53,991 nucleotides of DNA from Bacteroidaceae bacterium (lineage in GTDB: Bacteria > Bacteroidota > Bacteroidia > Bacteroidales > Bacteroidaceae), in the NCBI GenBank assembly GCA_017617575.1, contig JAFZVY010000081.1:1-53991 (forward strand). The letters run 5' to 3'. Below the pieces are notes generated by a model. It saw nothing but the letters and a program-made list of their open reading frames with translations, ran no database searches and had not been told where the DNA came from. Within the stretch, counting starts at the first letter, position 1; each line of letters opens with the position of its first letter. The position numbers and the translations under genes are program-made. This document shows positions 27,103-49,370 of this stretch, piece by piece.

Positions 27103-27275
27103 GGAGTTAACTTCGTGGAGTTAAAAAGGAGTTATATAGGAAGTTAAAAAGACGGATGTTCGTTCGCCAATATTACTCAATATTTCAAAGTTTAACAGAA
27201 CCAATGTGTATCGTCTCTTTAACTCCATTTTAACTTCCCTATAACTACTCTATAACTACTTACAAGTGAAACTTG
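27103..27275. repeat. Second long-range inverted repeat of the AGTTA type
   Basis: Left arm 27103-27165 (GGAGTTAA, GGAGTTAAAAAGG, AGTTAAAAAGACG) pairs with right arm 27211-27275 (CGTCTCTTTAACTCC, TTAACTTCCC, TATAACTAC). The arrangement is like 21119-21395. It fills the gap between the ABC permease and the last propeller gene, where it could attenuate read-through. Confidence 0.6.
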
Positions 27276-30200
27276 AACTACTAATTATTTTTTTTATCCC
27301 ATAATACAGCAATATGCAGATGCCCAAGAAGCCTGCAAATGCCATAAGAAGAGTTGTGATTCCTGCTCCTGCCACGTTGGCACTAATGCTTATGACAGAG
27401 CCTGTTGCGCCAATACATACTGCATAAAGTGGAACAAGAAGATTCTCATGCAATAGCATCTTTGCTACAAGTGAGTCGTCGAAGCCCATGGCACGATATT
27501 GCAGAATGGTATGTGCCTGAGCCGCAAGGTTCTTGCGCACGATAATCATAAGGCTGAATATGCCTAAGAGCAAGCCCAGTCCGCCAAGAGTCATGAAGAT
27601 GATGAGATACGTCTCCGTAACCTCAAAGAACATCCTTATGCGTTCCTCCACGCTTTGTATGTTAAGACCGTACTCGCTCATGGCTGTTGACAGGATTTCG
27701 GCTGTCTCGTCCGCACGTGGAGACTTGACGAGTAACACCTCCACACCTACCTCCTTAGGCCATAGGCGACGGAAATCATCTGATGACATGATGGCATTAC
27801 CATGGAAGATGCCCGTAGGATAAGAGCCTGCAATAAGTACAGGCACTCGCTCGCCCTTGTCGTTCTGGTAGTAAAGCGTGTCGCCCACGGACTTCATAAG
27901 ACTCCATAGGAGCGATTCCTCGTCTATGTAAAGCTGGGCTATGGTATGGTCATGCTTGCCTTCCTCCACAATGAGTCCGAAAGACTCCATATCCTCAAGG
28001 TTGACTCCAAGTACAGTTGGAGTAGTCACCTGATTGAGGTTAATACAACTTGCCTCGTCTTGTGTGTGGCGCATGAAACCGAGGAACTGTGTGCTGTCAG
28101 GCAAAGCGTCAAGTGACAACTTATTGCGAACGGCACTATTGTTCAAGTCATATTGTATCGGTACACGACTATCCACATATAGATTGTAGCCTCCCGTTGC
28201 CTGTATTGCCCTTCCGAAGTCAGGACGGTTAAGTCCAACGGCAAAGACCGTAAAGACTCCCAAGGAGAGTGCCCAGTATGCCTGTAGGTGTTGCTTGATG
28301 GATGCACGTATGGACAACCATGTCAATCGTCTTCGGCTCATCTTTCCGTCACTTTCTGCCTCCCTGACCTGACGACTCACATAGACACGCAGGAAAAAGC
28401 CCCACGTAAGAATCCACAAGAGTCCACAGATGATGAACAGAGCCAACTCGTGGAGGAATAGGAAGTTTACGGTTATCAAGGCAGATGTAAACACAAATAG
28501 ACCGATGAACAGATACTTGTCACGTTTGCCCTCTGCACTTTTTTCTTTCGTCTCTCCTTGTCCTTGCCTAAGCATATTGCGAACCACCATAAACAAGGCG
28601 AAGGCACATATAATCATACCCGTTACCCAACCGATGAGAAGGGTCATAGGTTGAACGTGCAAGGCAAATCCTTCTGTATGCGTAGCTCCGCTCCACACGT
28701 TGCCCAATAGCCATAGCGTGATACTTGAGTAGGCAAGACCTGCCGCCACACCCAAAGGTGAGGCAAGGAGCATGATGCAGAATGATTCCTCAAACAGCCT
28801 TCGTCCTATGTTCCATTCCGTAAAGCCCAACTGACGGTAAAGTTGTATCTCGCCAAGGCGCAAGGTAAACATTTCGGTAAGCGGACTCTTCATGAGCATG
28901 ATGGATGCAAGGATGATGAAGAAGCCCAAGGAGAGGAACAGGCTTGAGAAGTCAACGCCACCCTTTGCTCCAGCCAGTCCCTGTTCGCGTGGATGGAACA
29001 AGAGCACACCAGCATCACTTGGAGAGAGGCTGACCTCTGGTCGTTCAACAAATCGCAAGGCAGTTGCATTTCCAAAGGCATTACTCCAGTCGGAGCCTAC
29101 CGCATCGTATGCAACAACTGCCTTTGGAGTCTGGCGATAAGCGTACCAGTAATCCTCATCCACCTTGTGTACATGTTCCATCTTGATAGGCACGTCGCTA
29201 TCCCAGTCCGTACACTTCTCCACGTGAGTCAGCCCAGGGAAATCAGCCAAGAGCAGACTGTCGTGCATAAAGTCGGAGAGAGGGACGACACGCTTCACCA
29301 TGAATGTCTGTTCACGTGTCTCAAGACTCTTCAGTTGCTTTGTGATGAAATAGCTCATACGGACGGAATCGCCTTCATGTACTCCAAGTCGTTCCGAAGC
29401 ATAGTCGGAAAGTATAATGTTACTTCCTTCAAGCGGTTCTCCTTGCCACTCGTTTACGGCTGTCACGAATGAATAAGGAACGCTATCCGTACCATGTATC
29501 AGGTCGTTGACGAAGTAGGAGAAATAAACCGTAGAGTTTGCAGTCCTGCATTTATCTACCAATGGACTTGAGATGAACACGCCATCATAAGTGAGTGACG
29601 AGTCCGTAAGGTGAATACCAGACATCTCTGGTGTCCAGCATTTTGCGAGTTGTTCCTCGTCCACCAAGTCGTCGGAAAGCACGAGGTTTATTTTGCCCTC
29701 CAGTCCCATTGTCTCTGCTAAGTACTGACGACCAACGAACACGTTGAGAGGTAGTGTCTGCTCATTCTTTAGGAGTATATTGCCTCCTTCCTCCACGCTC
29801 TTCACTCCAGAGACATGGACACGCATCTTGGTGGCGTAGTTCTTCGTGACAAAGAGGCTTCCAGAAGGAACGAGGTTGCCAGAAGGAAGATGCAGTACAA
29901 AGTCTTCAACATCACCCAATTTGGCTTGTAAAGGCTCGTTTATCATTACCTCACCCGAAATAAGGGAATCGTTATCTACTCCCCACACATATACTGGGAG
30001 CAACTTATCCCCTATAGACACGAAGCCGTCCATCATTAGATAGCCTTGCGAATGTGCCATCAAAGGATGTTGCATGAGTCTGTCGCTCAAGAATCCTGTT
30101 CCACTTGTTATTATCGTCTCCGTCTTACCCAAGCGTTCACTCACTCGTCTTACCAACGTGTCACGTACGGAATCGCCCAGCAATAGGCTGCCCGTCAACA

Positions 30201-30291
30201 CGGCAGTCATAAGGATGACAGCAAAGGCTACCAGACGATAGAAACGTTGGTAGTACCTCCTGCTTTGTGATATGAGTGATGGTTGAGTCAT
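27256..30291 (-). CDS. ABC transporter permease with two FtsX-type domains
   Basis: A 1011-residue inner-membrane protein. One helix near the N terminus (about 19-38), a large periplasmic part, two FtsX blocks of three to four helices each (about 450-615 and 880-1000), and further helices between (about 625-700). The architecture is that of the large MacB/LolC/E-like permeases that move lipids, lipoproteins or peptides from the outer face of the inner membrane rather than through it. Its ATPase is the next gene upstream (87 bp gap). In this operon the natural guess is a lipid-like or lipoprotein substrate, which is inference. Confidence 0.85.
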   Translation of the reverse strand: MTQPSLISQSRRYYQRFYRLVAFAVILMTAVLTGSLLLGDSVRDTLVRRVSERLGKTETIITSGTGFLSDRLMQHPLMAHSQGYLMMDGFVSIGDKLLPVYVWGVDNDSLISGEVMINEPLQAKLGDVEDFVLHLPSGNLVPSGSLFVTKNYATKMRVHVSGVKSVEEGGNILLKNEQTLPLNVFVGRQYLAETMGLEGKINLVLSDDLVDEEQLAKCWTPEMSGIHLTDSSLTYDGVFISSPLVDKCRTANSTVYFSYFVNDLIHGTDSVPYSFVTAVNEWQGEPLEGSNIILSDYASERLGVHEGDSVRMSYFITKQLKSLETREQTFMVKRVVPLSDFMHDSLLLADFPGLTHVEKCTDWDSDVPIKMEHVHKVDEDYWYAYRQTPKAVVAYDAVGSDWSNAFGNATALRFVERPEVSLSPSDAGVLLFHPREQGLAGAKGGVDFSSLFLSLGFFIILASIMLMKSPLTEMFTLRLGEIQLYRQLGFTEWNIGRRLFEESFCIMLLASPLGVAAGLAYSSITLWLLGNVWSGATHTEGFALHVQPMTLLIGWVTGMIICAFALFMVVRNMLRQGQGETKEKSAEGKRDKYLFIGLFVFTSALITVNFLFLHELALFIICGLLWILTWGFFLRVYVSRQVREAESDGKMSRRRLTWLSIRASIKQHLQAYWALSLGVFTVFAVGLNRPDFGRAIQATGGYNLYVDSRVPIQYDLNNSAVRNKLSLDALPDSTQFLGFMRHTQDEASCINLNQVTTPTVLGVNLEDMESFGLIVEEGKHDHTIAQLYIDEESLLWSLMKSVGDTLYYQNDKGERVPVLIAGSYPTGIFHGNAIMSSDDFRRLWPKEVGVEVLLVKSPRADETAEILSTAMSEYGLNIQSVEERIRMFFEVTETYLIIFMTLGGLGLLLGIFSLMIIVRKNLAAQAHTILQYRAMGFDDSLVAKMLLHENLLVPLYAVCIGATGSVISISANVAGAGITTLLMAFAGFLGICILLYYGIKKIISSSSFTCK

Positions 30292-30378
30292 ATTCGATTA
30301 TGCTGTTTTACGGTTGGGCGGTTGCCCGTCCATACTGTTTCGAGGTCGTGCCGTTCTGCGGCATTAAGCCCCCTCCCG

Positions 30379-31062
30379 TTATTCCTCCAATAACTTTCCG
30401 TTTACGAGTTTGTATGTCTTATGAGCGACCTTTGCCATTTCGGCTGAATGGGTTACCATTATGATGGTGGTATGCATCTGGTCATTCACTTGTCGGAAGA
30501 GGGATGCTATGGTATGGGCGTTTGTCGCATCAAGTTGTCCCGTAGGTTCGTCTGCCAACAATATGGATGGCTGGTTGATTAGGGCACGACAGATTGCCAC
30601 ACGAGTCTGTTCGCCACCCGACAACTGGGTTACGGGACTGTCCTTCAAGGATAGGATGCCCATGAAGTCCAACAAGTCCAAGGCTCGCTTTTGTTCCTCT
30701 GCCGTAGAGGACGATTTGACGGCAAGTGTTGGTAACAAGATATTCTGAAGAACGGAGAACTGAGGCAAAAGGCGATGGTCTTGATACACGAAGCCTATCT
30801 CCTTATTACGGAGGTGGCAAATCCTTGCTGCAAGGTTCTTGTCGCCGTTTACCTTCACCTCCTCGCCCTTTATCAGGTATCGTCCCTCATCGGCAGGCAA
30901 CAAAGTGCCAAGTACAGAAAGGAGTGTCGTCTTTCCTGCACCCGACTCACCTGTTATGGCTATGAATTCGTCTTCTTCCACACGCAGGGACAGACCATCA
31001 AGTACCGTCTGCGCACGATGACCGTCGGCAAATCGTTTCGTGATATTCTCGAGTTCTATCAT
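30379..31062 (-). CDS. ABC transporter ATP-binding protein (LolD/MacB-like)
   Basis: A 227-residue ATPase when started at the ATG ending at 31062 (MIELENITKRF), the family's normal beginning; an ATG at 31092 adds ten unlikely residues. Walker A GESGAGKTT, Q-loop VYQDHRLL, signature QLSGGEQTR, Walker B SILLADEPTG and the switch His in VTHSAEMA are all intact. It partners the FtsX-type permease downstream. The preceding propeller gene ends 30 bp before the preferred start. Confidence 0.9.
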   Translation of the reverse strand: MIELENITKRFADGHRAQTVLDGLSLRVEEDEFIAITGESGAGKTTLLSVLGTLLPADEGRYLIKGEEVKVNGDKNLAARICHLRNKEIGFVYQDHRLLPQFSVLQNILLPTLAVKSSSTAEEQKRALDLLDFMGILSLKDSPVTQLSGGEQTRVAICRALINQPSILLADEPTGQLDATNAHTIASLFRQVNDQMHTTIIMVTHSAEMAKVAHKTYKLVNGKLLEE

Positions 31063-31092
31063 ATCTTGTATTTTCTTCTTTATAATCGTCAC

Positions 31093-32235
31093 TTAACCAA
31101 AACATAATAATGTGCCTCTACTTGTCAGGATATAGAAGCGGTCACTAATAATGGCAGGTGAGGCTATGATTGGTTCGCCAGCCTCATAATGCCATAGTTC
31201 CGTTCCATCCTCGCTATCAAGAATGGAGACATACCCATCCTTGGTGCAGACAAGCACCTTGTCCTGTGCCACGAGTGGAGAACATTCACCCGTGGTTCCT
31301 CGCAACATCTTTTTCCAGCGTACCTTACCCGATGCACGTTCGATACAACTAATATATCGGTCGCCAGAAAGGATATACACGTCTGTACGAGTGAGCGTTG
31401 GCATGGACACCACGCCTCCATCCACGCCCTCGTTATTGGTTGATGTGGCAAGCAACTTGCGATGCTTCGTAATCTTACCCTTGTCAAGGGTCATTTCATA
31501 CACGTTACCATTGTAGTCGCATGCACATGCCACTCCATCAAGGATGGCAGGAGAGGCAGGCACGTAGGTGTCAAGTTCGAGTGAGTCGGTTAATTGTCCT
31601 GTAGAGACATCAACCACACGTACCCAAGAGTCGCAACCGCCGAACATCATGTAATGTTTCCATACGGCTGCCGTTCCATTTATATAGTAACCAGTTGCAA
31701 ACTGGCTCATCTTCTTTCCTGTCTTTGAGTTGAAGGCGTACATGCTACCATCGTAGCTACCCACAAGCAACTTGTCGTCAAGCAGATTAGGTGAGCCTGA
31801 TATCTGTCCTAACGTCTCATAGTCCCACACAACTCGTCTTTTCTCTATTGAAAAAGCATTTACATGACCGTCTATCCTACCCACATACAACATAGAGTCA
31901 TTTGCAACAAACGAAGCCTCAACAGGAGTACCGAAATCGTAAACCAGCAAGGAATCACCCTCGGAAGAGAAACGACGCAAGCGTCCCTTACGGTCAAGAG
32001 TATAGACCCATCCGTCATAGACAATAGGGGCAGATACCGTTCGTGTCTTTGTCGTCGTGCTCCATAATAATTGAGGCGCATCAGGCAAGGCACAATCAGT
32101 AGAGCCACACAGCGATGGCGAGCCACGGAATATTACCCAGTCCTTTGTATGTTCGTCCGTGGCATATTCATTTACCACGGCACAACTAACGCACAAAAAG
32201 AGCACCAGTTGGACACAAATCAGCCACTTTTTCAT
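31093..32235 (-). CDS. PQQ-type beta-propeller lipoprotein
   Basis: A 380-residue lipoprotein: a lipobox VLFLCVSC puts Cys18 as the lipidated residue. The mature part is a beta-propeller with PQQ-like blades (KGRLRRFSSEGDSLL, KTGKKMSQF, VSTGQLTDS, ASGKVRWKK, EDGTELWHYE). It overlaps the end of the NuoG-like gene by 50 bp in another frame, a very tight link to that gene. A similar BamB-like propeller is a scaffold for the Bam complex; the role here is unknown. Confidence 0.85.
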   Translation of the reverse strand: MKKWLICVQLVLFLCVSCAVVNEYATDEHTKDWVIFRGSPSLCGSTDCALPDAPQLLWSTTTKTRTVSAPIVYDGWVYTLDRKGRLRRFSSEGDSLLVYDFGTPVEASFVANDSMLYVGRIDGHVNAFSIEKRRVVWDYETLGQISGSPNLLDDKLLVGSYDGSMYAFNSKTGKKMSQFATGYYINGTAAVWKHYMMFGGCDSWVRVVDVSTGQLTDSLELDTYVPASPAILDGVACACDYNGNVYEMTLDKGKITKHRKLLATSTNNEGVDGGVVSMPTLTRTDVYILSGDRYISCIERASGKVRWKKMLRGTTGECSPLVAQDKVLVCTKDGYVSILDSEDGTELWHYEAGEPIIASPAIISDRFYILTSRGTLLCFG

Positions 32236-33148
32236 CTATATCTTTCTTATTTTCCTCAATAACCACAACCTGCATATCAAATCCACGATGCATGAAGGTG
32301 AAGCTGTCCTTGGTATTGTAAACACACAATCCGCAACGAATACATTTGGCAGGTTCGAAATACAAGCGTCCATTGACATGAACCTGTTGCTTGACAGGCA
32401 GGTGAGAAGACACACCATGGCGAGGCGACTTAATCTGAGCGGAAGTGGCACATTCACGCAACTTACACTTAGCCTTTCCCTCACAAGCACAATGGAGGCA
32501 ATGTGAAGGCTGGGAATATTCCTCACGTAGCCACTCCTTCTCCTTATCATTATAGCGACCAAGCTTTGAGGAGAATGAGGACTTATCAAGGACTGCTTTA
32601 GATGTGACATCAACTTTTTTAAGTCCTTTTTGTTCGCTCAAGTCAATAAGCAACTGACGAATGTCCACGCACTTGTCAACCGTACCGCGCCTACATGCCT
32701 TCTCGCACATTGCCTTACAATCCGTACAAGGCAGATGCTCCACGTCCACAGCAGACGAAAGAAGAGAGAAAGCCTCATCCATCTGTTTCCTGTCAATATA
32801 GAGTAACACCTGAGCCACGTCTATGCCCGAAGGACATACGACGGTACAAGGAGCCTCACAATCGGCACGATGGTCGCTAAGGAGAAGCTCAAGCCCCATA
32901 CGACGCAAAGCCTTCACATCATCCGACTCCACGTCTATACGCATCCCCTCCGTAGGATAAGTGGAACAGCTCGGTATCATCTGGTTGTTTGCCTCATTAC
33001 GTACCATGCACACCATGCACGAAGGCTCATGCTTGGCATCATGAGCATAGCAAAGCGACGGTATGACATAACCAGCATCCCGAAGTTCCTCTATGAGGAC
33101 ACGTTCTCCGCTTACCTCCAGTTCTTTATCGTTTACTAAAATCTTCAT
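32186..33148 (-). CDS. NuoG/HydA N-terminal-like iron-sulfur protein
   Basis: A 320-residue cytoplasmic protein. Domain order: [2Fe-2S] ferredoxin (Cys33, 44, 47, 61), then a NuoG-type linker (HRADCEAPCTVVCPSGID, 93-110) and a GltD-like helical Fe-S domain (to about 170, CTDC..CEKACRRG), then a C-terminal [4Fe-4S] site (Cys269, 272, 275 and 312). The catalytic part of NuoG (molybdopterin-like) or of an Fe-Fe hydrogenase (H cluster) is absent. It therefore works as an electron relay, taking electrons from the NuoE-NuoF fusion encoded next to it with a 1 bp overlap. In the described NADH-dependent hydrogenases the equivalent subunit passes electrons to HydA; here the next acceptor would be another ferredoxin. 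Confidence 0.85.
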   Translation of the reverse strand: MKILVNDKELEVSGERVLIEELRDAGYVIPSLCYAHDAKHEPSCMVCMVRNEANNQMIPSCSTYPTEGMRIDVESDDVKALRRMGLELLLSDHRADCEAPCTVVCPSGIDVAQVLLYIDRKQMDEAFSLLSSAVDVEHLPCTDCKAMCEKACRRGTVDKCVDIRQLLIDLSEQKGLKKVDVTSKAVLDKSSFSSKLGRYNDKEKEWLREEYSQPSHCLHCACEGKAKCKLRECATSAQIKSPRHGVSSHLPVKQQVHVNGRLYFEPAKCIRCGLCVYNTKDSFTFMHRGFDMQVVVIEENKKDIDEKVADLCPTGALFVR

Positions 33149-35580
33149 TACTTCTTCACTTTCTTTATTGCGTTATAATCGCATTCACCGATACAAAGTC
33201 CGCATTGGGTACATTTATCCGTATCGATGACATGCTTCTCGTATGGAGTATAGGCTATTGCCTCACTCGGACATGAGCGTGAACATTTTGTACAGCCAAC
33301 ACAGTCGTCGGTAATCTCAAGCTTGACCATCTGCTTGCATGAACCTGTACGACAGATACCATGCATATGTTCCTCATATTCGTCACGGAAATAGCGAAGA
33401 GTAGAGAGCACAGGATTTGGAGCAGTCTTGCCAAGTCCGCACAAGGCAGAACGCTTGATACTGAGGGCAAGTTCCTCCAGACGATTGATGTCATCCGCCT
33501 TTGCCTGTCCCGTAGTTAGACGGTCAAGTATGTCAAGCATACGACGAATGCCCACACGACAGAAAGTACATTTTCCACATGACTCGGCACAAGTGAAGTT
33601 GGTAAAGTAGCGTGCCACATCGACCATGCAACTACTCTCGCTCAACACAACCAATCCTCCCGAACCCATGATGGAGCCCATCTTGTTCAAGGCATCAAAA
33701 TCCACCTCGGCATCACACAGCTCGGCAGGAATACATCCTCCGGAAGGTCCACCTATCTGTACTGCCTTCAAGGCTTCACCACCTTCCACTCCGCCACCGA
33801 TATTCTCAACAATCTGACGAAGTGTTGTTCCCATAGGAACCTCAATAAGACCTCCGTGGTTCACCTTGCCAGCCAAGGCAAACACCTTAGTACCACGACT
33901 ACCCTCAGTTCCAACCTTGGCATATTCATCTGCACCATGACGGATGATATATGCAATCTGGCTCAATGTCTCCACGTTATTTATCAACGTAGGTCTGCCG
34001 TTAAAGCCCTTTTGGGCAGGATAAGGAGGACGGAGATGTGGGAATCCACGCTTGCCTTCCATGGAAGCAATAAGTGCGGTTTCCTCTCCACAGACGAAAG
34101 CACCAGCACCTTCAAACACACGAATGTCGAAGCTAAAGTCCGTTCCGAATATATTTGTTCCTAATAATCCTTTCTGACGGCACATATCAAGTGCCTTACG
34201 AATACGTATAACAGCTTGAGGATACTCTGCACGGATATAGAATACTCCCTCGCTTGCCCCAACGGCATATCCGGCAATAATCATGCCTTCAATCACACGC
34301 AAAGGATAAGACTCCAACAAGATGCGATCCATAAATGCACCCGGGTCACCCTCGTCACCATTACAGATAACGATAGGGTTGCCTTTGCTATCGGAAACAA
34401 GTTGCCATTTCCTTCCAGTAGGGAATCCTCCACCGCCTCGTCCACGGATGCCACTTTTGAGCACTTCGTCAATAACCTGCCGTGGTGACATTTCCTTGAC
34501 GGTCTTTTCAAGTGCCTCAAAGCCTCCTTGCGAGATATACTCGTCAAGGTCAAGCGGATTGAGGTGTCCATATCCTTCGGTTGAGATGCGGAACTGTCCA
34601 CCCAAGAACGTGTTGATGCTCTGCGTACGTTCTTTCTCTGGCGTGAAGAGTATATTGTCCCACGTCTGGTCGGTATGGAACGTATCAATATGATTAAGCA
34701 TGGCATTACGCAAACGTCTCAAACGACTTGCAGGACGGAAATGATGGAGCAAGACCTCCTTCACTTCGTCTGGCCTAATGTTTGGATAGCGCACGATTTT
34801 GCCATCAAGAGTCGCAACATCAATCAGAGGAACTTGGTTACAAGTACCCACACAAGACACAGGCTTGATTCGGATATGGATTCCCAGTTCCTTGCAAGCT
34901 TCCACAACGGCAGAATATACCTCTGCCGTTCCACTTGCCTGACAACAATTCTCCATACCTAACCTAACCTCGCCTTGTATCTTGCTATCATCATAGGCAG
35001 AGTCTTCCTGTTCCTGACTGGCTACCATGGATTCAAATTCATCCAAGACCTCACGCACGCGACCCGGCATGACGTGTCCGAATATCTTCTGGTCAATCTG
35101 TACGACAGGAGCCAAGGCACAACAACCAAGACAAGCCACCTTCTCGATGGAGTATTTACCATCAGCAGAGGTTATGTCGTCACCTTCCAGCTGTAGCTCA
35201 CGCCTTAACGCGTCATATACGTTATTGGCACCCTTAACATGGCATGCCGTTCCGATACATACCTTGATGATATGCTTGCCATAAGGAACCATCCTCAACT
35301 GCGAATAGAAGGTAGCAACGCTTATGAGTTGGGCACGGTCAATATCCGTACGTTCATAGATACGATTAAGCGCATCAGAAGGCAAATAATTAAATTCCTT
35401 CTGTATGGCTTGCAGAAGCGAAATAATCAATTCTCGCCCCGTACCAATCCTATCTATGATAGCATCCGTCTTTCGCCAGACAACCTGAACGGCATCATCG
35501 GGCGATACACACCCACAACCGCTACAGCCATTGGCTTCCTTTATATTTACGTCGTCCTTTCTCATTTCTTCTTTACGCAA
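33148..35580 (-). CDS. NuoE-NuoF-ferredoxin fusion (NADH-oxidising flavo-iron-sulfur protein)
   Basis: An 810-residue cytoplasmic protein. NuoE-like [2Fe-2S] domain: Cys108, 113, 150, 154. A second thioredoxin-like [2Fe-2S] domain: CC at 212-213, and CVGTC at 243-247. NuoF: RGRGGGGFPTGRKW (379-392) for FMN/NADH, NGDEGDPGAFMDR, GEETALIASMEGKRG, and N3 cluster ligands Cys668, 671, 674 and 714. Two C-terminal [4Fe-4S] sites: Cys760, 763, 766, 770 and Cys790, 793, 796, 800. An extra CSGCGC lies at 19-24. The layout equals HndA plus HndC (hydrogenase diaphorase) in one chain, but no hydrogenase gene is present in the window. It most likely oxidises NADH and feeds ferredoxin-type partners. Confidence 0.9.
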   Translation of the reverse strand: MRKEEMRKDDVNIKEANGCSGCGCVSPDDAVQVVWRKTDAIIDRIGTGRELIISLLQAIQKEFNYLPSDALNRIYERTDIDRAQLISVATFYSQLRMVPYGKHIIKVCIGTACHVKGANNVYDALRRELQLEGDDITSADGKYSIEKVACLGCCALAPVVQIDQKIFGHVMPGRVREVLDEFESMVASQEQEDSAYDDSKIQGEVRLGMENCCQASGTAEVYSAVVEACKELGIHIRIKPVSCVGTCNQVPLIDVATLDGKIVRYPNIRPDEVKEVLLHHFRPASRLRRLRNAMLNHIDTFHTDQTWDNILFTPEKERTQSINTFLGGQFRISTEGYGHLNPLDLDEYISQGGFEALEKTVKEMSPRQVIDEVLKSGIRGRGGGGFPTGRKWQLVSDSKGNPIVICNGDEGDPGAFMDRILLESYPLRVIEGMIIAGYAVGASEGVFYIRAEYPQAVIRIRKALDMCRQKGLLGTNIFGTDFSFDIRVFEGAGAFVCGEETALIASMEGKRGFPHLRPPYPAQKGFNGRPTLINNVETLSQIAYIIRHGADEYAKVGTEGSRGTKVFALAGKVNHGGLIEVPMGTTLRQIVENIGGGVEGGEALKAVQIGGPSGGCIPAELCDAEVDFDALNKMGSIMGSGGLVVLSESSCMVDVARYFTNFTCAESCGKCTFCRVGIRRMLDILDRLTTGQAKADDINRLEELALSIKRSALCGLGKTAPNPVLSTLRYFRDEYEEHMHGICRTGSCKQMVKLEITDDCVGCTKCSRSCPSEAIAYTPYEKHVIDTDKCTQCGLCIGECDYNAIKKVKK

Positions 35581-39167: not shown

Positions 39168-39170
39168 TTA

Positions 39171-40175: not shown

Positions 40176-40188
40176 ATATGTTAGTATT

Positions 40189-41622: not shown

Positions 41623-43343
41623 ACGTTCATGCCTTTTAACGCGTTCAACAAGAATAAGACGTTATATAGTTCTTCTGAATACCAAAGACGAGAGAAATAC
41701 AAGCCTATTGGCTCACGCTCATAAAGAGTGCCTTCCTTGTGTCGCCTATAGAGATATTCCCATCCACGATTCTTTGCGTCTTCATATTTATCTGGGAAAT
41801 GAGCCAAGGCTGCAAGTGCACGACTCGTGAAGGTAACCTTCGACTTAACGTCCTTGTTGCCTCCCCATCCTCCGTCATCATTCTGGGTACGGATTATGAA
41901 GTCTATCTGAGATTGTGCCAACTTTGTTGCCGCAGGATGATGGGCAGACATCAAGTAATCAATAGCCGTGGCTGTACCATATACAGGTGCCTTTTCATCT
42001 GTTGCATCTTGGTCGCCAAACCACAAAGGAACCCATCCGCTTGCTTCGTTGCCATTGTCATTTTCTATGGTATCTTCCATCCACGCAAGCATCCTGTCCA
42101 AGTTCTTCTGAACGTCAGTTTTCAACTTACCTTCCAAACAAGGCAACCAAAGTCCCATGGCAAGTATGGCGTGAGCCGTTATGTCTGGTGTGCTTCGGTC
42201 AAAAGGTAATTTACCCCATCCCTTGCAGAATGTAGGCATTCCTCCGTCGTTATTCTGTAATTGCATCAACCATTTCAAGCCGTTTTCAACTTCGTGACTA
42301 CTCTTGCCTTGTGTAAGATGATAGAGGGCTACTAACGCACCACTCGTATCGTCACCATCAGGAACAGAGCCGCTCAAATCGCTCCATCCCCATCCTCCGG
42401 GTACGGCAGACGTGAATGGATGAACAAATGTTGTTGCGTTTCCCTTTACAATATTAGCGAGACCTTCCACATCAACAATGCCATTATGAGGCAAGACCTT
42501 AGATGCAAGGCTCGTCAACCATCCAGAAAGGTTTGTGTCAATAGGCCAAGAACCATCCTCTCGAACCGTATCAACAAGGAACTGGGCACAACGTTGTGTC
42601 ACCTCATGTTCACGGAAAGAACCTTCTGCCAAACACATGCTAACGAAAGCAGTAAGAGGAGCAGCCTCAAGGAATCCGCCATCCACAGGTTGCATACGAC
42701 GTAACACACGCATGGCCTTTGGAACAAAGAGTTTGCGTATAGGTGTCAAAAGTCCTCCCTTCTTGTGCATCTGGCATATACCAATGGCAATAAGTGCAGG
42801 AATGGCATAGCTCACCACTGGAAGGTTGAGATAGCGGAATAGACGCTGAGGCAAAGTGGCAAGCTCAAACGGAAATGGAGGAATCTTCTTCCAATCCTTT
42901 ACGACACCTGCCAAGGCACACATCATAAGGATAGGAACAGAGAAAGTGAGGTCGCGACCATAATAGCGAAGCACACCTTTAGTGAGTGCCTCCTCACTGT
43001 CACCTCCAAACTGTCTATTGAGGTATTGCCTCGATTCCTGTGGTGCTTGTCCCACGGCATATAGTGAGACATAGGTAAGCAAGGTAGCTGTCATGTTTGA
43101 CGGACTCTCCACGCTATCGCCCCAAGAGCCATCAGGCTTCATGGCTCCTTGCAACCAACGCACTCCTGCTTGGATATGTGTTGCATATTTATCTGCATCT
43201 ATTCGTTGAAGGGCAAACACACTAACAGCCGTAGAGATGGCACTACTCGAAAGTGAGCCTCTCCACAGGCCATCCTCGGAGCGCCTCTTCATGAGGTACT
43301 CCATGGCGTCTGTCTGTATTTCCTTCAACTGTTCTGTTTTCAT
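41619..43343 (-). CDS. Squalene-hopene-cyclase-like class II terpene cyclase
   Basis: A 574-residue protein of the squalene-hopene cyclase superfamily. The class II acid motif DXDD is present as DGDD at 329-332 (VPDGDDTSG). QW-type repeats include GSWGD (72-76), DGSWPID (263-269), GGWGWS (316-321), DGGMP and GGWGG (491-495). The FPFELATLPQRLFRYLNLPVVSYAIPALIAIGI stretch (158-188) matches the membrane-channel region of bacterial cyclases. It is slightly shorter than the 620-700 residues of characterised hopene cyclases and has no signal peptide. The product cannot be told from the sequence; the polyprenyl synthase gene nearby suggests the substrate is made within the operon. Confidence 0.8.
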   Translation of the reverse strand: MKTEQLKEIQTDAMEYLMKRRSEDGLWRGSLSSSAISTAVSVFALQRIDADKYATHIQAGVRWLQGAMKPDGSWGDSVESPSNMTATLLTYVSLYAVGQAPQESRQYLNRQFGGDSEEALTKGVLRYYGRDLTFSVPILMMCALAGVVKDWKKIPPFPFELATLPQRLFRYLNLPVVSYAIPALIAIGICQMHKKGGLLTPIRKLFVPKAMRVLRRMQPVDGGFLEAAPLTAFVSMCLAEGSFREHEVTQRCAQFLVDTVREDGSWPIDTNLSGWLTSLASKVLPHNGIVDVEGLANIVKGNATTFVHPFTSAVPGGWGWSDLSGSVPDGDDTSGALVALYHLTQGKSSHEVENGLKWLMQLQNNDGGMPTFCKGWGKLPFDRSTPDITAHAILAMGLWLPCLEGKLKTDVQKNLDRMLAWMEDTIENDNGNEASGWVPLWFGDQDATDEKAPVYGTATAIDYLMSAHHPAATKLAQSQIDFIIRTQNDDGGWGGNKDVKSKVTFTSRALAALAHFPDKYEDAKNRGWEYLYRRHKEGTLYEREPIGLYFSRLWYSEELYNVLFLLNALKGMNV

Positions 43344-43406
43344 TAGTGTTCCTCCTTCTTACACAGCATGGGCAAGACTTGCTCCATGCCTGTTTAGTTA
43401 GTTGGT

Positions 43407-44069
43407 CTATATTGTTCCTAATGCCAATAATCCATAAAAGACGTATTCCACATCGCTATATTCATCATACAAGGTAGGAGCAAATCCTCCGTTGTCCAAC
43501 CAATGGGCTTGAATGAAAGATGAGGCATCTTTTACTTCCGCTCCTATGAGACGGAGGGTGAATAAAGCCACAGACGTACTCAACAAGTCAGGAACGGTAG
43601 CCAAGTCGCTTGCATAGAATCCTCCTGTCTCATCTTGACGCTGGCGAATCCACTCCACACACATGGCATCAGGTTGTTTGCCCATCTGGTGCATCATAGC
43701 CACGATACAACACACAGCATTTGTGGTTACTGCCTTGGGCATATCTATGTTTATCTCCTTTGGACGTGACATCCTCATTTCTTGTTCAAGGAATTCAAAG
43801 AAACGCCCATAGATTGTATCTCTATTCCTACTCTCCTGTACCGTGAGATGGATAGGCATACGTATTAGTTTGCTGGGACTGAATACGGCTTCAAGCACAT
43901 CGCCAAACTGCTTATAGTAAGCATCCTCTGCACCTCCAGCATTCATATAGCCATGTGCCGTCTTTTGCGAGGCAACAAATGACCGTAATGCCTGTTGCGC
44001 ATCAGGAGACATTCGTTTCCATCCCTTACGCAAGGTACGATATACTATATATAGTAATGGCGTCTTCAT
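43407..44069 (-). CDS. Small prenyltransferase/squalene-oxidase-repeat protein
   Basis: A 220-residue protein with two recognisable units of the alpha/alpha-barrel repeat: IRQRQDETGGFYAS .. STSVALFTLRLIG and HWLDNGGFAP .. SDVEYVFYGLLALG. The DVEYVFYGLLAL end is like the beta subunits of protein prenyltransferases. It is much too short to be a full cyclase and has no DXDD, so it may be a partner subunit of the cyclase encoded next to it. It overlaps the polyprenyl synthetase gene by 4 bp. Confidence 0.6.
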   Translation of the reverse strand: MKTPLLYIVYRTLRKGWKRMSPDAQQALRSFVASQKTAHGYMNAGGAEDAYYKQFGDVLEAVFSPSKLIRMPIHLTVQESRNRDTIYGRFFEFLEQEMRMSRPKEINIDMPKAVTTNAVCCIVAMMHQMGKQPDAMCVEWIRQRQDETGGFYASDLATVPDLLSTSVALFTLRLIGAEVKDASSFIQAHWLDNGGFAPTLYDEYSDVEYVFYGLLALGTI

Positions 44070-45541
44070 CCCAATATCTTTTCTGTCACCTGATAAAGCA
44101 GGCGTTTAAGTTCCATTTCGTCCAAACCATTAAGCGCATCAAGGGCTTGCTGATGATATTGGTCTGTCAATCTCTGAAGCTCTGTCTTTACATCTTCCTG
44201 ACTCCATGAAGGATGCTCCGTCCTCAAAGCCAGCACAGCAGAAGGACGACATGCAAGTTCGTTGTCCTGAACAAAATCGTCCAAGTCATCCTTCAACTGA
44301 TATGCAATACCCAAGGCTTCAGAATAATCTTTGAGCATAGGGCGAAGGTGTGCAAAATTGCCTGTACAACTCAAGCCAAGCATCAACGATACCTCAAATG
44401 CTGGTACGGTCTTATTGCGGAAGATATTCATCACAAAGTCTAACGTGACTGGTGACTTATCCCACATAAGTTCCTCACCTTGCCCACGGCACAACCTAAT
44501 ATGTGCATCTGCTATAAGGCGAAGTAACTCAGGATTGTTACTCTGAGCCAAGATACGATAGCCTTGTCCTAACAATGCATCACCTACATTTATGGCAAAA
44601 GCATCACCATATAACGCGTTGACGGTAGGCTTACCATAGCGAGTACCATCCTTGTCCTCCACATCATCATGAATAAGTGAAGCCTTGTGGAAACATTCCA
44701 CGGCTACGGCAGCACGATGTACGTCAATAGGCATCTCAGTCTTGCCTGTCAAGGCTTGCCATACGGCAGACAATAGGAAAGGGCGCCAACGCTTGCCCTC
44801 ACCACTCATCCAGTCAAGGCATATCTTCTGAGTAGAGTCCGTGGCTGGAAGCATGAGTTGTTCCAATTCCTGACGAGAGAACCAACGGTTCACCTGTTCC
44901 TGTATTGCCTCATGGTCAAGTAAGTGGGAAGTGGCTTCTTCATTCAAAAGAGACAGCATCTCCTCCACGTAATCCACATCCACATGAGTGTCACGACACC
45001 CAGAGTCATTCAAGGCTATTGCCAACCCCGGAACGGCATGACGCACAAGAAGGGGAAAGGCTTTCTCCAGAGAATCAAGACAGCTAACACCTATAACGGC
45101 ATCAACCACATTATTCTCTATGAGTTCAATAACCTGTGTGAATCCTTCTGCCACAATGCTTAAACCTCCAAGTTGCTCTGCCTTGTCTTGCAGATTAGGG
45201 ATGTGACAACGACCGCAACGATGGCAAAGTAGGCCATACTCATCAAATTCTGCTTGACACTCGCCATATCGACTGAGACATTTTGGTAACATCAGCAATC
45301 GACGTTCATAAGGAATACCAGCAACAACAGGCAACCATACTTGATTGTGAATCTCTACCATCAACCAAGGACGCATGTCCACACAGTCCTCATGGTCGCT
45401 AATAAACGTATCTGCCAGTTGCTCCAACTGTTTGAGCGAAACAGGCGGACACAACTGTTGCATCTGCACAAAAGCCCTTAGTGCCTTGCGCAAATGCATA
45501 CGTTGCTCCAACGTCGATGGTATGACATACTGTTTGCTCAT
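44066..45541 (-). CDS. DUF116 - polyprenyl synthetase fusion
   Basis: A 491-residue fusion. The N-terminal part is a DUF116-type domain: cysteines at 88, 95, 106, 109, 112 and 154 (CHRCGRCHIPN; VIGVSCLDS), likely holding an iron-sulfur cluster. The C-terminal part (about 235-491) is an isoprenyl diphosphate synthase: GKRWRP (249-254), first Asp motif DDVED (292-296) in FHKASLIHDDVEDKDG, GDALLGQ, and second Asp motif DDLDD (418-422). All catalytic residues are present, so it should extend allylic diphosphates; the chain length is not clear. Fusing a probable Fe-S domain to a prenyl synthase is unusual and suggests redox control or a coupled step. Confidence 0.85.
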   Translation of the reverse strand: MSKQYVIPSTLEQRMHLRKALRAFVQMQQLCPPVSLKQLEQLADTFISDHEDCVDMRPWLMVEIHNQVWLPVVAGIPYERRLLMLPKCLSRYGECQAEFDEYGLLCHRCGRCHIPNLQDKAEQLGGLSIVAEGFTQVIELIENNVVDAVIGVSCLDSLEKAFPLLVRHAVPGLAIALNDSGCRDTHVDVDYVEEMLSLLNEEATSHLLDHEAIQEQVNRWFSRQELEQLMLPATDSTQKICLDWMSGEGKRWRPFLLSAVWQALTGKTEMPIDVHRAAVAVECFHKASLIHDDVEDKDGTRYGKPTVNALYGDAFAINVGDALLGQGYRILAQSNNPELLRLIADAHIRLCRGQGEELMWDKSPVTLDFVMNIFRNKTVPAFEVSLMLGLSCTGNFAHLRPMLKDYSEALGIAYQLKDDLDDFVQDNELACRPSAVLALRTEHPSWSQEDVKTELQRLTDQYHQQALDALNGLDEMELKRLLYQVTEKILG

Positions 45542-45627
45542 TATTACTTAATTTAACTTTGTCTCAAATTCATGCTTCCGTGAAGTGCATAAATCTGAAA
45601 CTATACATTTGACATTCCAAAATGTCT

Positions 45628-46839
45628 CTACCCATAAGCACCAAAACCGAAGAAGTAATTTCGTTTGAGCCACCTATAAGGACGGCTCTGTTCTGGAATA
45701 AGATTTGTGTTCATGTTGTGGCTTGGGATGCTTGTCATCCTTGCATATTCTTCCATTGCCGTGCCACGGGTAGTAGTTTCCTTGGCGTCATATTCTTTTA
45801 TTATCTCAGCCATCTGTTGCGGATTATCCATTATGATGCACCCTCGTGTGCTCTGGGCTATCCTGTGTCTCATATCTGTCAGGAACTTAGACTTTGCATA
45901 TAGTTCCGTCATATTGCTTGCATCCGAATTGATGAAGTCCGTTGCCATCTGAATGACTGGACAGAACTCAATGGCGCCTGAAGGGGAGATGTGATGACTC
46001 ATTCCTGTTGCTCCCGGACATATTGCCCTTCCTTCTTCGTCCCAATAGACATCTATAAGTGCCACTGGGGCATTCATGCGCTCATGTACGAGGAACTGTC
46101 TAAGACCTTGTATCTGTTCCTGACTCAACGCTTGCTCTGGATGTGCATTTGCTCCAACAGGACGATAGATGTAGTACCATAGGTATGCTGCACCTTCACG
46201 AGCTACTCGTTCTATGTGTTGACGACTTACCAATTCGTCGTAATTGTTCTTGCAAATACTTGCTGCCACGCCAAAGATAAGTCCTGCCTTCCTACAGGCT
46301 CGTACACCACGAAGTGTACGTTGGAACACCTCATTAGCCTGCCGTCTTCGGTCACTCTCCTGTTCCAAGCCCTCAATGCTGATGAGTGGAGTCACATTAC
46401 CAGCCTTGCGAAGTTGGAAGGCAATGTCCTCGGTAAGTAGAGTGCCATTGGTAAACAACTGGAAGTAGCAATCGCTATGCTTCTGGAATATACTCAGAAG
46501 TCCCTTGTACATCAAGGGCTCGCCACCCAGTATTCCGAAAAACTTGGAACCATGCCGTTTACTCTCCCGAATGATACCGTCAATCTGCTCTATCGTGAGA
46601 CTTTTCCGTCCTCCTTGGCTCACCCAGCATCCGCTACAGGCAAGATTGCATGTCTCCGTTACGGAAATCATATTGAAGGCTGGAAAGAAAGGTTCACCTC
46701 GCTTCTGGCGTTTCTCGAAGTGGTGCATATTCCACAAATTAGGCAGGCAGAAGTTCCAACAAAACTTCCACAACAGCCTGATTGGTGTCTGTCTGAACAC
46801 CCTCCAGCATAGTTTTACCAATGAGGTATATTCCTTCAT
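45628..46839 (-). CDS. Radical SAM enzyme of the terpenoid/redox operon
   Basis: A 403-residue radical SAM protein. The cluster motif CNLACSGC (Cys64, 68, 71) follows FNMISVTETCN, and the GGEPLM block contacts SAM. The C-terminal part has CPGATG and FCPVI, and a lone Cys near 350, a limited auxiliary-cluster pattern. The gene lies between a polyferredoxin gene (9 bp) and the DUF116-prenyl synthetase gene (86 bp). In hopanoid pathways a radical SAM enzyme (HpnH) attaches an adenosyl group to the terpene; a similar modification is possible here but family membership is not shown. Confidence 0.8.
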   Translation of the reverse strand: MKEYTSLVKLCWRVFRQTPIRLLWKFCWNFCLPNLWNMHHFEKRQKRGEPFFPAFNMISVTETCNLACSGCWVSQGGRKSLTIEQIDGIIRESKRHGSKFFGILGGEPLMYKGLLSIFQKHSDCYFQLFTNGTLLTEDIAFQLRKAGNVTPLISIEGLEQESDRRRQANEVFQRTLRGVRACRKAGLIFGVAASICKNNYDELVSRQHIERVAREGAAYLWYYIYRPVGANAHPEQALSQEQIQGLRQFLVHERMNAPVALIDVYWDEEGRAICPGATGMSHHISPSGAIEFCPVIQMATDFINSDASNMTELYAKSKFLTDMRHRIAQSTRGCIIMDNPQQMAEIIKEYDAKETTTRGTAMEEYARMTSIPSHNMNTNLIPEQSRPYRWLKRNYFFGFGAYG

Positions 46840-46848
46840 ATTCTATTT

Positions 46849-47535
46849 CTACTCTCTGATTAGTCTAATCTTTCTTGATGCAAGTTTCTCGCGAAGCGTC
46901 TTGGCATATAGCTCCTTTGAGTCCAGCTTGATGGCACTCTCCTGCACGCTTTCCCCACCGTTGATGGGACTACGGTCATACTTAGGGAATATGATAGCAC
47001 TTGCAGGACATGTGCGGGCACAGGCAGGACAGTTGTTCTTGCAATTATGAGGGTGAACGACACGAATGCGCTCGTCCACCATCTCATACACACCAAATGG
47101 GCAGAACTCCAGGCACTTCCCACATTCGGCACATACATCCTTGTCAAGCGTTGGGAACCAAGCATCATCACCCAGTCGCTTAGGCATGGTTTCCATCTGT
47201 GCCATCCATGCCTCAGAATCTTCCGCGCTTACATCAACTGGCTGTACGCCCAATTCTTTCAGCACATCTTCTGCCGAACGCCCACGGATGCTCAAGGACT
47301 TCACGTCATCCTCACCTGCAAAAGCCATAAGGCTCTTCACAGCCCTTGGGTGGCACGCCACAATGGTAGTGGCAGCTATATTATGTATTTCCTCTGACTT
47401 GTTCTCACACAACTCACAAAGGTCGCTTACGAGCGTTACCTCCATTCCTGCCTTTTGTGCCGCAACAGCCACCTTGGCAACCTCGGCACGGTCAATGAAT
47501 GTTCGTGATGAACAAGCACATATTGTTATCTTCAT
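46849..47535 (-). CDS. Cysteine-rich protein with two 4Fe-4S sites
   Basis: A 228-residue cytoplasmic protein. The N-terminal half has a CACSSRTF start, LCELCENK and VACHPRAVKSL, a Rossmann-like pattern recalling HdrA-type proteins. The C-terminal half carries CAECGKCLEFCP and CKNNCPACARTCP, two [4Fe-4S] sites. It is the first gene after the two-component system (10 bp gap) and may deliver electrons to the radical SAM enzyme 9 bp after it. Confidence 0.75.
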   Translation of the reverse strand: MKITICACSSRTFIDRAEVAKVAVAAQKAGMEVTLVSDLCELCENKSEEIHNIAATTIVACHPRAVKSLMAFAGEDDVKSLSIRGRSAEDVLKELGVQPVDVSAEDSEAWMAQMETMPKRLGDDAWFPTLDKDVCAECGKCLEFCPFGVYEMVDERIRVVHPHNCKNNCPACARTCPASAIIFPKYDRSPINGGESVQESAIKLDSKELYAKTLREKLASRKIRLIRE

Positions 47536-47545
47536 TTCAATTACA

Positions 47546-48304
47546 TTAGTTAGTTGTCATCCAGTTCTTAAATTCTGCCGCCTTGTTCTTGCTTACAAAT
47601 AATGGCTCTGGCAATTCAATTGGCATGTTTACAAGGAGACGGCTGTCAAACCATACGACAATATCCTTGACACAATCGCGAGCCACTATATATTGCTTGT
47701 TGGCACGGAAGAATCGAGATGGATTCAATCCCACTATGATAGAGTCAAGTGAGCGGTTGTAGAGCATCATCTGTCCCGACTTGGTGTAAATCTGTGTCTT
47801 GCGGTCGGTACTGTAGATGCAAGCCACATCGTCCATGCTTACAGGTACGAGCCTGTCTTTTACAGGCACGAGCAACGATGACGTATATTCAGAGGTGTTG
47901 GTTGGTTTCATCTTCATCATTCTCTGAAGATAATCCATCACGTCGTTACTTGTCCACCTCTTGAACTTGTCAAGCGCACGCTCCAACTCAGACGTCTTTA
48001 TCGGCTTGAGCAAATAGTCGATACTATTGACCGTAAAGGCTTCAAGTGCATACTGGTCGTATGCCGTTGTGAACACAATCGGAACGGTAACGTCTATCTC
48101 TTGGAAGAGAGTGAAGGCAGAGCCATCGCTCAGATGGATGTCCATAAAGATAAGGTCTGGTGCAGGATTACTGCTCAGCCACCTCACGGTTTGCTGGACA
48201 CTCTCCAACACCTTCAGCACCTCTATCTCGCCATCTATCTCCTGCAACATGGCTATGAGATTCTCGCTTGCCGCCGTCTCGTCTTCTATAATCAATACTT
48301 TCAT
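47546..48304 (-). CDS. LytTR-family response regulator
   Basis: A 252-residue regulator: receiver domain with Asp55 (FMDIHLSD), Thr79 and Lys100 (LLKPIK), then a LytTR DNA-binding domain (about 145-250; VPVSMDDVACIYSTDRKTQIYTKSG, FFRANKQYIVA). It starts 5 bp after the sensor kinase gene and ends 10 bp before the first gene of the long operon. A pair at the head of the operon it controls is a common arrangement for autoregulation. Confidence 0.9.
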   Translation of the reverse strand: MKVLIIEDETAASENLIAMLQEIDGEIEVLKVLESVQQTVRWLSSNPAPDLIFMDIHLSDGSAFTLFQEIDVTVPIVFTTAYDQYALEAFTVNSIDYLLKPIKTSELERALDKFKRWTSNDVMDYLQRMMKMKPTNTSEYTSSLLVPVKDRLVPVSMDDVACIYSTDRKTQIYTKSGQMMLYNRSLDSIIVGLNPSRFFRANKQYIVARDCVKDIVVWFDSRLLVNMPIELPEPLFVSKNKAAEFKNWMTTN

Positions 48305-48309
48305 TCTAT

Positions 48310-49314
48310 CTATCCTAATGGCAAAATAACTTTGAATTCCTTTTCCGTACGCTCAACCCTTATCTTCTTGTCCATAAGCAGGGTAAAACGCTTCTCGAGA
48401 TTATCCAGTCCTGTACCATGTGTCTCTGGCTTGTACTGCTTTGGGTACAAAGGATTGACGACCATAAGTTCCTTGTCGTCGTTCATCAAGATATTGACCG
48501 TCATCCTATGCTCGCTGTCTATCATATTGTGTACAGTCACATTCTCAATAAGCGGAAGAAGTGCCAAGACAGGAATGGACAGGTTCATGCAGTCGTCCGG
48601 AACATCAATATGTACATCCAGCTTACCTGCATACCTTACCTCCATGACCTCGCAGAAGGAACGTGCAAAGTCCAGTTCCTCCTCCAAGGGAACAAGTCCC
48701 TTGCGCTCGCTCTGAAGGATATAACGGAATATGTCGCTCAGATGGTCTATATAACAGATGGTCAACTTATCATCCTTCTTTCGCACCAAGCTACTTATTC
48801 CTCCTAACGAGTTAAAGAAGAAATGTGGATTTATCTGATTGGTCAAAGCCGTACAACGACTTTGCAAACTCTCTATCTTCAACGTCTGAAGCTCCTTCTC
48901 CTTCTTCTGATGGATGATGCTAAGATAATTGGTAAAGCCAAGCAACATTCCCATCATACCCATGACGAAGAACTGGAACGTAAGGATGATAGGCCTAAAG
49001 TCGAACTCCGAGCAGATAAGAGCCGTGATGCCCTTGTACATGCCGTATGCCACGATAGTCAGTCCCACATTAGGAAGAATACGCCCCATCAACTGAGTAC
49101 TCTTCATCCATTTCTGGTTGACAAACAACAAACTTGCAGAGAATAGCCAGAACAACAAGAAGCGTATAAGCATATTGTCAATGTAGCATCCGCGTGACTC
49201 TACAGGCACGCAGTCCCAGTCCCAACTTATGAAGAGCAAGTTAGGATAACTGACAAATACGGTACACACCAAGCTTGCCAGCAACATCTTACTTATAGAC
49301 TTGTTATATTTCAT
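48310..49314 (-). CDS. LytS-type sensor histidine kinase
   Basis: A 334-residue inner-membrane kinase when started at MKYNKS (an ATG at 49332 adds six residues). Four hydrophobic helices in the first 140 residues are followed by a His_kinase block NPHFFFNSLGG with the phosphoacceptor His, an N-box LIENVTVHN and a G-box GTGLDNLEKRF. It is the LytS-type cytoplasmic module with little periplasmic sensing. A membrane-embedded signal, such as quinone or lipid state, would fit, but that is inference. Confidence 0.9.
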   Translation of the reverse strand: MKYNKSISKMLLASLVCTVFVSYPNLLFISWDWDCVPVESRGCYIDNMLIRFLLFWLFSASLLFVNQKWMKSTQLMGRILPNVGLTIVAYGMYKGITALICSEFDFRPIILTFQFFVMGMMGMLLGFTNYLSIIHQKKEKELQTLKIESLQSRCTALTNQINPHFFFNSLGGISSLVRKKDDKLTICYIDHLSDIFRYILQSERKGLVPLEEELDFARSFCEVMEVRYAGKLDVHIDVPDDCMNLSIPVLALLPLIENVTVHNMIDSEHRMTVNILMNDDKELMVVNPLYPKQYKPETHGTGLDNLEKRFTLLMDKKIRVERTEKEFKVILPLG

Positions 49315-49370
49315 CCTATTATCTTTTATCATAGCAAGGCGGATTCGTCTCCACCCACTTATTTACGCTA

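Follow-up and report, generated by a model that had tools for sequence, protein, structure and literature searches.

Gene content of the locus

We analysed a stretch of 53,991 nucleotides, referred to below as the window, from contig JAFZVY010000081.1 of a Bacteroidaceae bacterium (assembly GCA_017617575.1; order Bacteroidales). The source genome, of which the window is contig 150, comprises 3.38 Mb and is 86% complete. The subject of this report is a cluster of 17 minus-strand open reading frames (ORFs) at positions 27256–49332, in which neighboring genes are separated by −50 to +87 bp, a spacing from which a single transcript across the cluster is likely. Gene families were assigned with Pfam and NCBIfam profiles. 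In 5′ to 3′ gene order, the cluster contains:

48310–49332, minus strand: HK, sensor kinase of the His_kinase family (PF06580), three hydrophobic segments
47546–48304, minus strand: RR, LytTR response regulator (PF00072 and PF04397)
46849–47535, minus strand: Fdx1, N-terminal four-Cys domain and 2x[4Fe-4S] ferredoxin
45628–46839, minus strand: rSAM, radical SAM protein (PF04055), three invariant auxiliary cysteines
44066–45541, minus strand: DUF116-PPS, DUF116 fused to a trans-prenyl diphosphate synthase (PF01976 and PF00348)
43407–44069, minus strand: toroid2, short α-α toroid protein (PF00432, 25.5 bits against a cut-off of 26.5)
41619–43343, minus strand: SHC, class II (DXDD) terpene cyclase resembling squalene–hopene cyclase
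40189–41622, minus strand: PropA, PQQ-type propeller (PF13360), N-terminal hydrophobic segment
39171–40175, minus strand: NHL, NHL-like propeller (weak profile matches), twin-arginine-like N-terminus and C-terminal CxxCxxxC
38583–39167, minus strand: TatFdx, twin-arginine-type polyferredoxin (profile match), many invariant cysteines
37328–38590, minus strand: NapH, NapH-like membrane iron-sulfur protein (PF12801; TIGR02163 below cut-off)
35562–37331, minus strand: PropB, PQQ/BamB-type propeller (PF13360), three hydrophobic segments
33148–35580, minus strand: NuoEF, read as a BfuC–BfuB (HydC–HydB) fusion with NuoE, [2Fe-2S] thioredoxin-like, NuoF/FMN and 2x[4Fe-4S] parts and His738
32186–33148, minus strand: NuoG-like (BfuA) iron-sulfur relay, 320 residues
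31093–32235, minus strand: PropC, propeller (PF13570 and PF13360), lipoprotein-like N-terminus (by eye)
30379–31092, minus strand: ABC, LolD/FtsE/YbbA-like ATPase (PF00005; best match TIGR02211, below cut-off)
27256–30291, minus strand: FtsX, large FtsX-type permease (PF02687), nine hydrophobic segments

A preliminary description of this DNA had counted 16 genes where we count 17 ORFs; the co-directional run that it described is confirmed, and profile searches recovered on the minus strand all of the gene families that it named. The cluster is composed of two linked, separable modules beside one two-component regulator. Module 1 comprises Fdx1, the radical SAM protein, DUF116-PPS, the small toroid protein and the DXDD cyclase. 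Module 2 comprises PropA, NHL, TatFdx, NapH, PropB, NuoEF, the NuoG-like protein and PropC, usually with a fourth propeller, PropD. Because a very similar arrangement of genes is found again in bacteria that are only distantly related, the cluster looks like a real, uncharacterised system.

Distribution and conservation of gene order

Genomes and loci are labelled G and L, respectively. The first set of relatives comprised 61 genomes, the source genome and 60 others (36 of the same genus and 24 of the same order). A long match to DUF116-PPS was present in the source genome, 11 of the 36 same-genus genomes and two of the 24 same-order genomes, and the gene order was kept in 12 of these 13 relatives, as far as the fetched stretches reach. 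In the thirteenth, G052, only the DUF116-PPS gene is visible, on a contig of 3.3 kb. In G059, SHC and PropA are separated by two additional PropD-like genes. The second set, 164 genomes from the phylum of Chthoniobacter flavus, is called the Verrucomicrobiota sample, the name following C. flavus as its centre. Fourteen stretches were fetched from 11 of its genomes, and in six of the 11 (G930, G1005, G956, G877, G964 and G923) both modules are joined in the order of the window, again as far as the stretches reach. The modules face each other on opposite strands in G912 and G860 and lie on two contigs in G945, and module 2 is not in view in the fetched stretches of G970 and G959.

The third set, loci L052–L131, represents the best 80 of at least 569 relatives, many of them partial, and counts of named loci refer to these 80. 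The close ones are Prevotella, Bacteroidaceae and Parabacteroides records, and three Parabacteroides records that are not labelled as metagenome-assembled (L061, L064 and L070) carry the cluster; L055, L058 and L069 look like the same contigs as G033, G030 and G059. In a separate phylum sample of 392 genomes, with listed rows mainly of the same class, the DUF116-PPS fusion was present in one, the source genome itself.

Module 1

DUF116-PPS contains the two DDxxD motifs of trans-prenyl diphosphate synthases (D292, D293, D296 and D418, D419, D422), and both motifs and seven DUF116 cysteines, including a CxxCxxC motif, are invariant in 81 of 81 aligned rows. The DUF116 domain modelled alone had a predicted local distance difference test (pLDDT) score of 85.6 and no clear structural relative in a fold comparison, which barely probed the helical N-terminus, as its aligned span was 75–200. 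The same domain pair, also with CxxCxxC and further cysteines, is found in Psta_0175 of Pirellula staleyi, for which section 3.6 of PMC5898192 predicts an electron-transfer role and a flavodoxin-like fold; that section is silent on cyclase, radical SAM or Bfu neighbors. The earlier statement that no described pathway of this composition was known is therefore corrected for the DUF116-polyprenyl synthetase fusion; of the joined cluster as a whole, no description was found in the open-licence papers searched.

In the radical SAM protein, the CxxxCxxC motif is present in 54 of 54 rows, and C274, C293 and C334 are each present in 56 of 56. Residues C6, C8, C40 and C61 of Fdx1 are invariant in 21 rows and its eight ferredoxin cysteines in 60 of 60; the N-terminal four-Cys domain is HdrA-N-like, by eye only. 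The toroid2 gene overlaps that of DUF116-PPS by 4 bp. The cyclase combines a DXDD acid motif with an α-α barrel fold, the features of class II enzymes. It is 22% identical to squalene–hopene cyclase (1sqc, 2sqc), from which it differs in being paired with a small toroid protein and in lacking a squalene synthase match in its genome. For the cyclase of the window, the fold score does not discriminate between squalene–hopene cyclase and class II prenyl diphosphate cyclases such as drimenyl diphosphate synthase (8zg1, 7xru, 5bp8).

Several variations of module 1 were observed among the relatives. Toroid2 has about 220 residues in the window vs about 285 in many relatives, and the four-Cys and ferredoxin domains of Fdx1 are split in L101, L103, L109, L110, L119, L129 and others. 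In L090, L114, L121, L128 and L131, which have Planctomycetota-group titles, the usual radical SAM protein has no match and another family stands directly before the fusion; its two profiled members, in L121 (7936–9954) and L114 (4551–6602), are radical SAM proteins weakly like TIGR04013 B12-binding types. In 11 of the 80 loci (L110, at 4565–7350, L088, L089, L100, L101, L103, L105, L109, L117, L119 and L129), a GcvH-like protein is encoded in which a lipoyl-lysine-type motif was recognized by eye; it is accompanied by CobW in eight of the 11 and sometimes by cysteine desulfurase.

Module 2

NuoEF is laid out as NuoE, a [2Fe-2S] thioredoxin-like part, NuoF and two [4Fe-4S] parts, which corresponds to HydC fused to HydB. 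Its best solved-structure matches are NfnB (2.8e-200) and HydB-type chains, and that of the NuoG-like protein is NfnA (1.2e-30). For comparison with the Bfu family, we assumed our own Pfam equivalents for the InterPro entries of section 4 of PMC9304861. The BfuB domains all occur in NuoEF (PF01512, PF10531, PF10589 and PF00037), with PF10531 (SLBB) marginal at 26.3 bits against a cut-off of 27, and the NuoE-like thioredoxin [2Fe-2S] domain that marks BfuC is found as PF01257 at residues 39–182 of the same protein. The NuoG-like protein resembles BfuA in having PF13510 over cut-off and [4Fe-4S] sites seen as sub-cut-off matches and invariant cysteines; it matches only the N-terminal part of NuoG/HydA-type chains. 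Residue H738 of NuoEF, the counterpart of the B2-cluster histidine, aligns with the histidine of NfnB and HydB and is kept in 31 of 31 rows having a residue there, as are C743 and C748 (duplicate rows retained). According to PMC9304861, this histidine is kept in nearly all BfuB proteins and missing from non-bifurcating homologues.

On this sequence evidence, NuoEF reads as a BfuC–BfuB fusion, the core of the HydABC/Bfu family, rather than as a plain NADH dehydrogenase piece, which corrects the reading as a NuoEF fusion in the preliminary description. Because of this architecture, the redox chain is probably electron-bifurcating or confurcating. The window shares with the Bfu family, as presented by Schut et al. 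2022 (PMC9304861), the BfuB domains, the BfuC domain, a short BfuA-like partner and the bifurcation-linked histidine, but here BfuC is fused to BfuB and the partners are NapH-like, a Tat ferredoxin and propellers; the words 'NapH' and 'propeller' do not occur in the main text of that paper. It gives no assigned function for 17 BfuB clades, and the cluster supplies a concrete partner set for a kind of Bfu enzyme without assigned function. Proton-pumping subunits, as in respiratory complex I, are absent from the 20 genes scanned (25764–51572; the rest of the genome was not searched).

The remaining iron-sulfur proteins of module 2 are predicted to form a membrane and periplasmic chain. In the NHL protein, C322, C325 and C329 are invariant in 34 of 34 rows. 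The N-termini of NHL and TatFdx carry twin-arginine-like motifs, which we take to be twin-arginine translocation (Tat) signals. The NapH-like protein has five hydrophobic segments and cysteine columns invariant in 56–58 rows, and scores 53.7 bits with TIGR02163 against a curated NapH/MauN-family cut-off of 213.05; it may work in the manner of NapH. NapGH/NosR-type membrane iron-sulfur relays likewise have a NapH-like membrane protein adjoining a Tat-type ferredoxin (in the window, TIGR02163 and NF046105 are below cut-off). The window differs from them in having no nitrate or N2O reductase in the 20 genes scanned and in coupling a Bfu core and propellers instead.

In seven genomes (G016, G009, G017, G026, G006, G012 and G002), the NuoG-like protein has about 200–220 residues vs 320 in the window, and the middle of the protein (about residues 98–220) is unmatched. 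The NuoEF match of G002 (about 19986–22362) is spread over two reading frames that overlap; either BfuC and BfuB may be encoded separately there or the frame may be broken.

Linkage of the two modules

Co-occurrence was followed with DUF116-PPS as the marker of module 1 and TatFdx as that of module 2. Among 392 genomes of the order, source genome included, the fusion was present in 15, TatFdx in 69 and both in 14; the corresponding numbers for the 164 genomes of the Verrucomicrobiota sample were 25, 24 and 22. One-sided Fisher tests, which treat related genomes as the independent draws that they are not, gave P values of 1.1e-10 and 5.6e-22, respectively. This bears out the co-occurrence of the two halves, which the preliminary description had proposed to check. 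Among 31 genomes behind the named loci, TatFdx was found in six of six behind L058–L071 and in 15 of 25 behind L085–L131 (L104 is titled Bacteroidales). In a set of 76 genomes, the cyclase was absent at an E-value of 1e-20 from 55 of 55 genomes with TatFdx only and from 18 of 18 with neither marker, and it was present in three of three with the fusion. By these counts, module 1 is more dependent on module 2 than module 2 is on module 1, though not strictly so outside the two samples.

As TatFdx occurs without the fusion in 55 of the 69 order genomes and G807 and G657 carry the two modules at separate places, the cluster consists of two separable modules. In ten stand-alone module 2 loci (L133–L142), taken from order genomes with TatFdx and without the fusion, module 2 has the same order in nine, as far as each reaches. 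L139 and L142 have one extra gene between PropB and NuoEF, and L138 has only PropD, PropA, NHL, TatFdx and NapH, followed by other genes. The occurrence of the genes in separate clusters elsewhere, named at the outset as a reason to abandon the proposed unit, is thus half realized: the modules are separable, yet they strongly co-occur.

An unlikely explanation is that the redox module mainly feeds module 1 and the whole is one biosynthetic pathway, in which NADH would provide low-potential electrons to Fdx1, to the cluster of DUF116 and to the radical SAM enzyme, and a periplasmic arm would finish or reduce the lipid outside. Such a pathway would agree with the iron-sulfur richness of module 1, with the company of module 2 that it mostly keeps and with a gene order fixed across two phyla, but not with the 55 TatFdx genomes that have neither fusion nor cyclase, nor with the 10 of 25 genomes behind L085–L131 in which the fusion occurs without TatFdx. 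It is slightly more doubtful that the modules have come together solely through shared transfer and a shared niche, without being linked in function. Their separability, their patchiness within the genus (11 of 36 relatives) and the IS256-type transposase gene beyond PropD would fit this explanation; the gene order that six Verrucomicrobiota-phylum genomes share with genomes of the window's order, the one-sided dependence of module 1 on module 2 and the tie of ABC-FtsX to joined clusters argue against it.

The last of these points comes from the gene that follows PropC. It is ABC in 13 of 13 joined clusters with the next gene visible (G016, G009, G017, G026, G006, G030, G029, G002, G059, G573, G930, G956 and G964) and in none of seven loci with the modules apart (L134, L136, L137, L140, L141, L144 and L148). 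One gene family takes this place in five of the seven (L136, L137, L141, L144 and L148), a glycosyltransferase by its sole profiled member, L137; the genomes of L144 and L148 carry module 1 elsewhere. As in LolCDE and YbbAP, a LolD/YbbA-like ATPase is combined with an FtsX-domain permease. The permease of the window (1011 residues) is set apart from those systems, with no PDB sequence match at an E-value of 0.01.

Squalene supply and the hopanoid question

The family of squalene and phytoene synthases (SQS/PSY, PF00494), which would supply a squalene–hopene pathway, was absent from the source genome at an E-value of 0.001 and from all 11 genus-mates that carry the fusion. The two other same-order fusion genomes differ, G059 having a match and G052 none. 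A further search of 42 fusion genomes gave matches over cut-off in 13: eight of 12 from the order, five of 25 from the Verrucomicrobiota sample and none of the five behind L061, L064, L068, L070 and L071. One more match, in G716, was below cut-off.

Because the family is missing from the source genome and the 11 genus-mates, an ordinary hopanoid is unlikely in the window's genus, as judged from gene content, and because 42 of the 56 fusion genomes are without a match, squalene would not serve as the substrate in general, unless it is produced in some other way. Within the order, the squalene result is mixed. An ordinary hopanoid product, the alternative with which the preliminary description had contrasted its proposal, is therefore unlikely in the genus and may apply elsewhere in the order, where eight of 12 genomes have a match.

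That the cluster as such makes hopanoid-type products from squalene in the ordinary way, alongside a respiratory module, appears improbable to us. The cyclase resembles squalene–hopene cyclase in fold and motif, and an SQS/PSY match over cut-off is present in 14 of the 56 fusion genomes, among them eight of the 12 from outside the genus in the further search of the order, although phytoene synthases too fall under PF00494. According to PMC7671984, ox-bile caused a slight induction of terpene cyclase genes of Akkermansia muciniphila, which have neighboring locus tags and are read there as hopanoid genes, and this bacterium, which has an annotated squalene synthase gene, tolerated bile less well when an inhibitor of squalene synthase was added; those cyclase genes may belong to the system described here. 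Set against these points are the 42 fusion genomes, source genome and genus-mates included, without a match over cut-off and the strong co-occurrence of the two modules.

A possible function of the cluster

From the parts, motifs, order and co-occurrence of the genes as read in the sequence, we infer catalysis, product, lipid transport, direction of electron flow, acceptor, propeller role and the link between lipid and redox chain as follows. Our tentative preference is for a cyclic polyprenyl lipid made inside the cell and moved by ABC-FtsX, with the Bfu core driving electrons outward to the periplasmic ferredoxin. The prenyl synthase half of DUF116-PPS would build a polyprenyl diphosphate in the cytoplasm, and the DXDD cyclase, with the small toroid protein as partner, would close rings by protonation. 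DUF116, Fdx1 and the radical SAM enzyme might perform a reductive or radical step, a guess from their cysteines and context. In the window's genus, this route would run without squalene, if the genomes are rightly read. The Bfu core (BfuC–BfuB and the short BfuA) would be supplied with electrons by NADH and, by analogy with its family, by ferredoxin. The NapH-like membrane protein would hand them on to the Tat-exported ferredoxin and the NHL protein, with the membrane- or lipid-anchored propellers as a putative scaffold for the chain. The ABC-FtsX pair would extract or move the lipid. Since in the two samples module 1 seldom occurs unless module 2 is present as well, and module 2 often occurs by itself, the lipid may be a client of the redox module in the periplasm or an accessory to it.

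Several observations weigh against this proposal. The frequency of TatFdx without the fusion (55 of 69 order genomes) means that the main job of module 2 may have nothing to do with the lipid. Conversely, TatFdx is missing beside the fusion not only in the 10 of 25 genomes behind L085–L131, one of which is C. flavus (G833), but also in G575 (of the order), G913 and G991. SQS/PSY matches over cut-off occur in 14 of 56 fusion genomes and in eight of the 12 order genomes outside the genus (eight of the 11 better-complete ones at an E-value of 0.001). The NuoG-like gene, which was detected in the joined Verrucomicrobiota locus G877, was undetected in four others (G930, G956, G964 and G923), where PropC closely follows NuoEF. 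In L148, a weak ABC match of 58 bits lies at the second gene past PropC, with one gene in between or less. We found no domain for catalysis or for a terminal acceptor, sequence alone cannot tell bifurcation, and a distance correlation over 40 rows, at least three of which repeat a contig, carried no species-tree control.

A more specific form of the proposal we regard as quite unlikely: electrons would flow outward from a bifurcating Bfu core, whose membrane cofactor or docking lipid would be a dedicated cyclic polyprenyl lipid made independently of squalene. The lipid might carry sulfur and itself be redox-active, as a GcvH-like carrier and at times a cysteine desulfurase stand beside module 1 in some loci from other phyla. 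For both halves of the cluster a parent kind is known, namely the Bfu family and the class II cyclases, and their combination links the cyclisation of terpenoids with electron transfer in the envelope, both in gut bacteria and in environmental ones.

Flanking genes and other features of the window

The following features lie around the cluster:

50763–51572, minus strand: MIP aquaporin/glycerol facilitator (PF00230), recurrent neighbor
49583–50665, minus strand: CobW-family GTPase (PF02492), recurrent neighbor
49371–49378, minus strand: TAATTTTG, candidate Bacteroidales −7 element upstream of HK
25764–27032, minus strand: PropD, fourth propeller (PF13360), 223 bp downstream of the cluster

PropD is found near both modules in relatives, and CobW lies on the module strand in 12 of the 80 fetched loci. 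MIP adjoins CobW in relatives and stands after FtsX in G956. As all three recur nearby in some relatives, the limits first given to the cluster may be slightly narrow. The consensus behind TAATTTTG is one that we take to be the Bacteroidales −7 element; with four matches in the window against 3.3 expected, it is not above chance and by itself no promoter evidence. Scans of 25000–44900 were at background for promoters (39 vs 32.1, standard deviation 5.8) and terminators (14 vs 14.6).

Directly beyond PropD, at 24415–25368, is the IS256-type transposase gene (NF048019). At 5371–6762, an ORF of 463 residues has domains of the DNA polymerase III alpha subunit, which at full length is longer than this.

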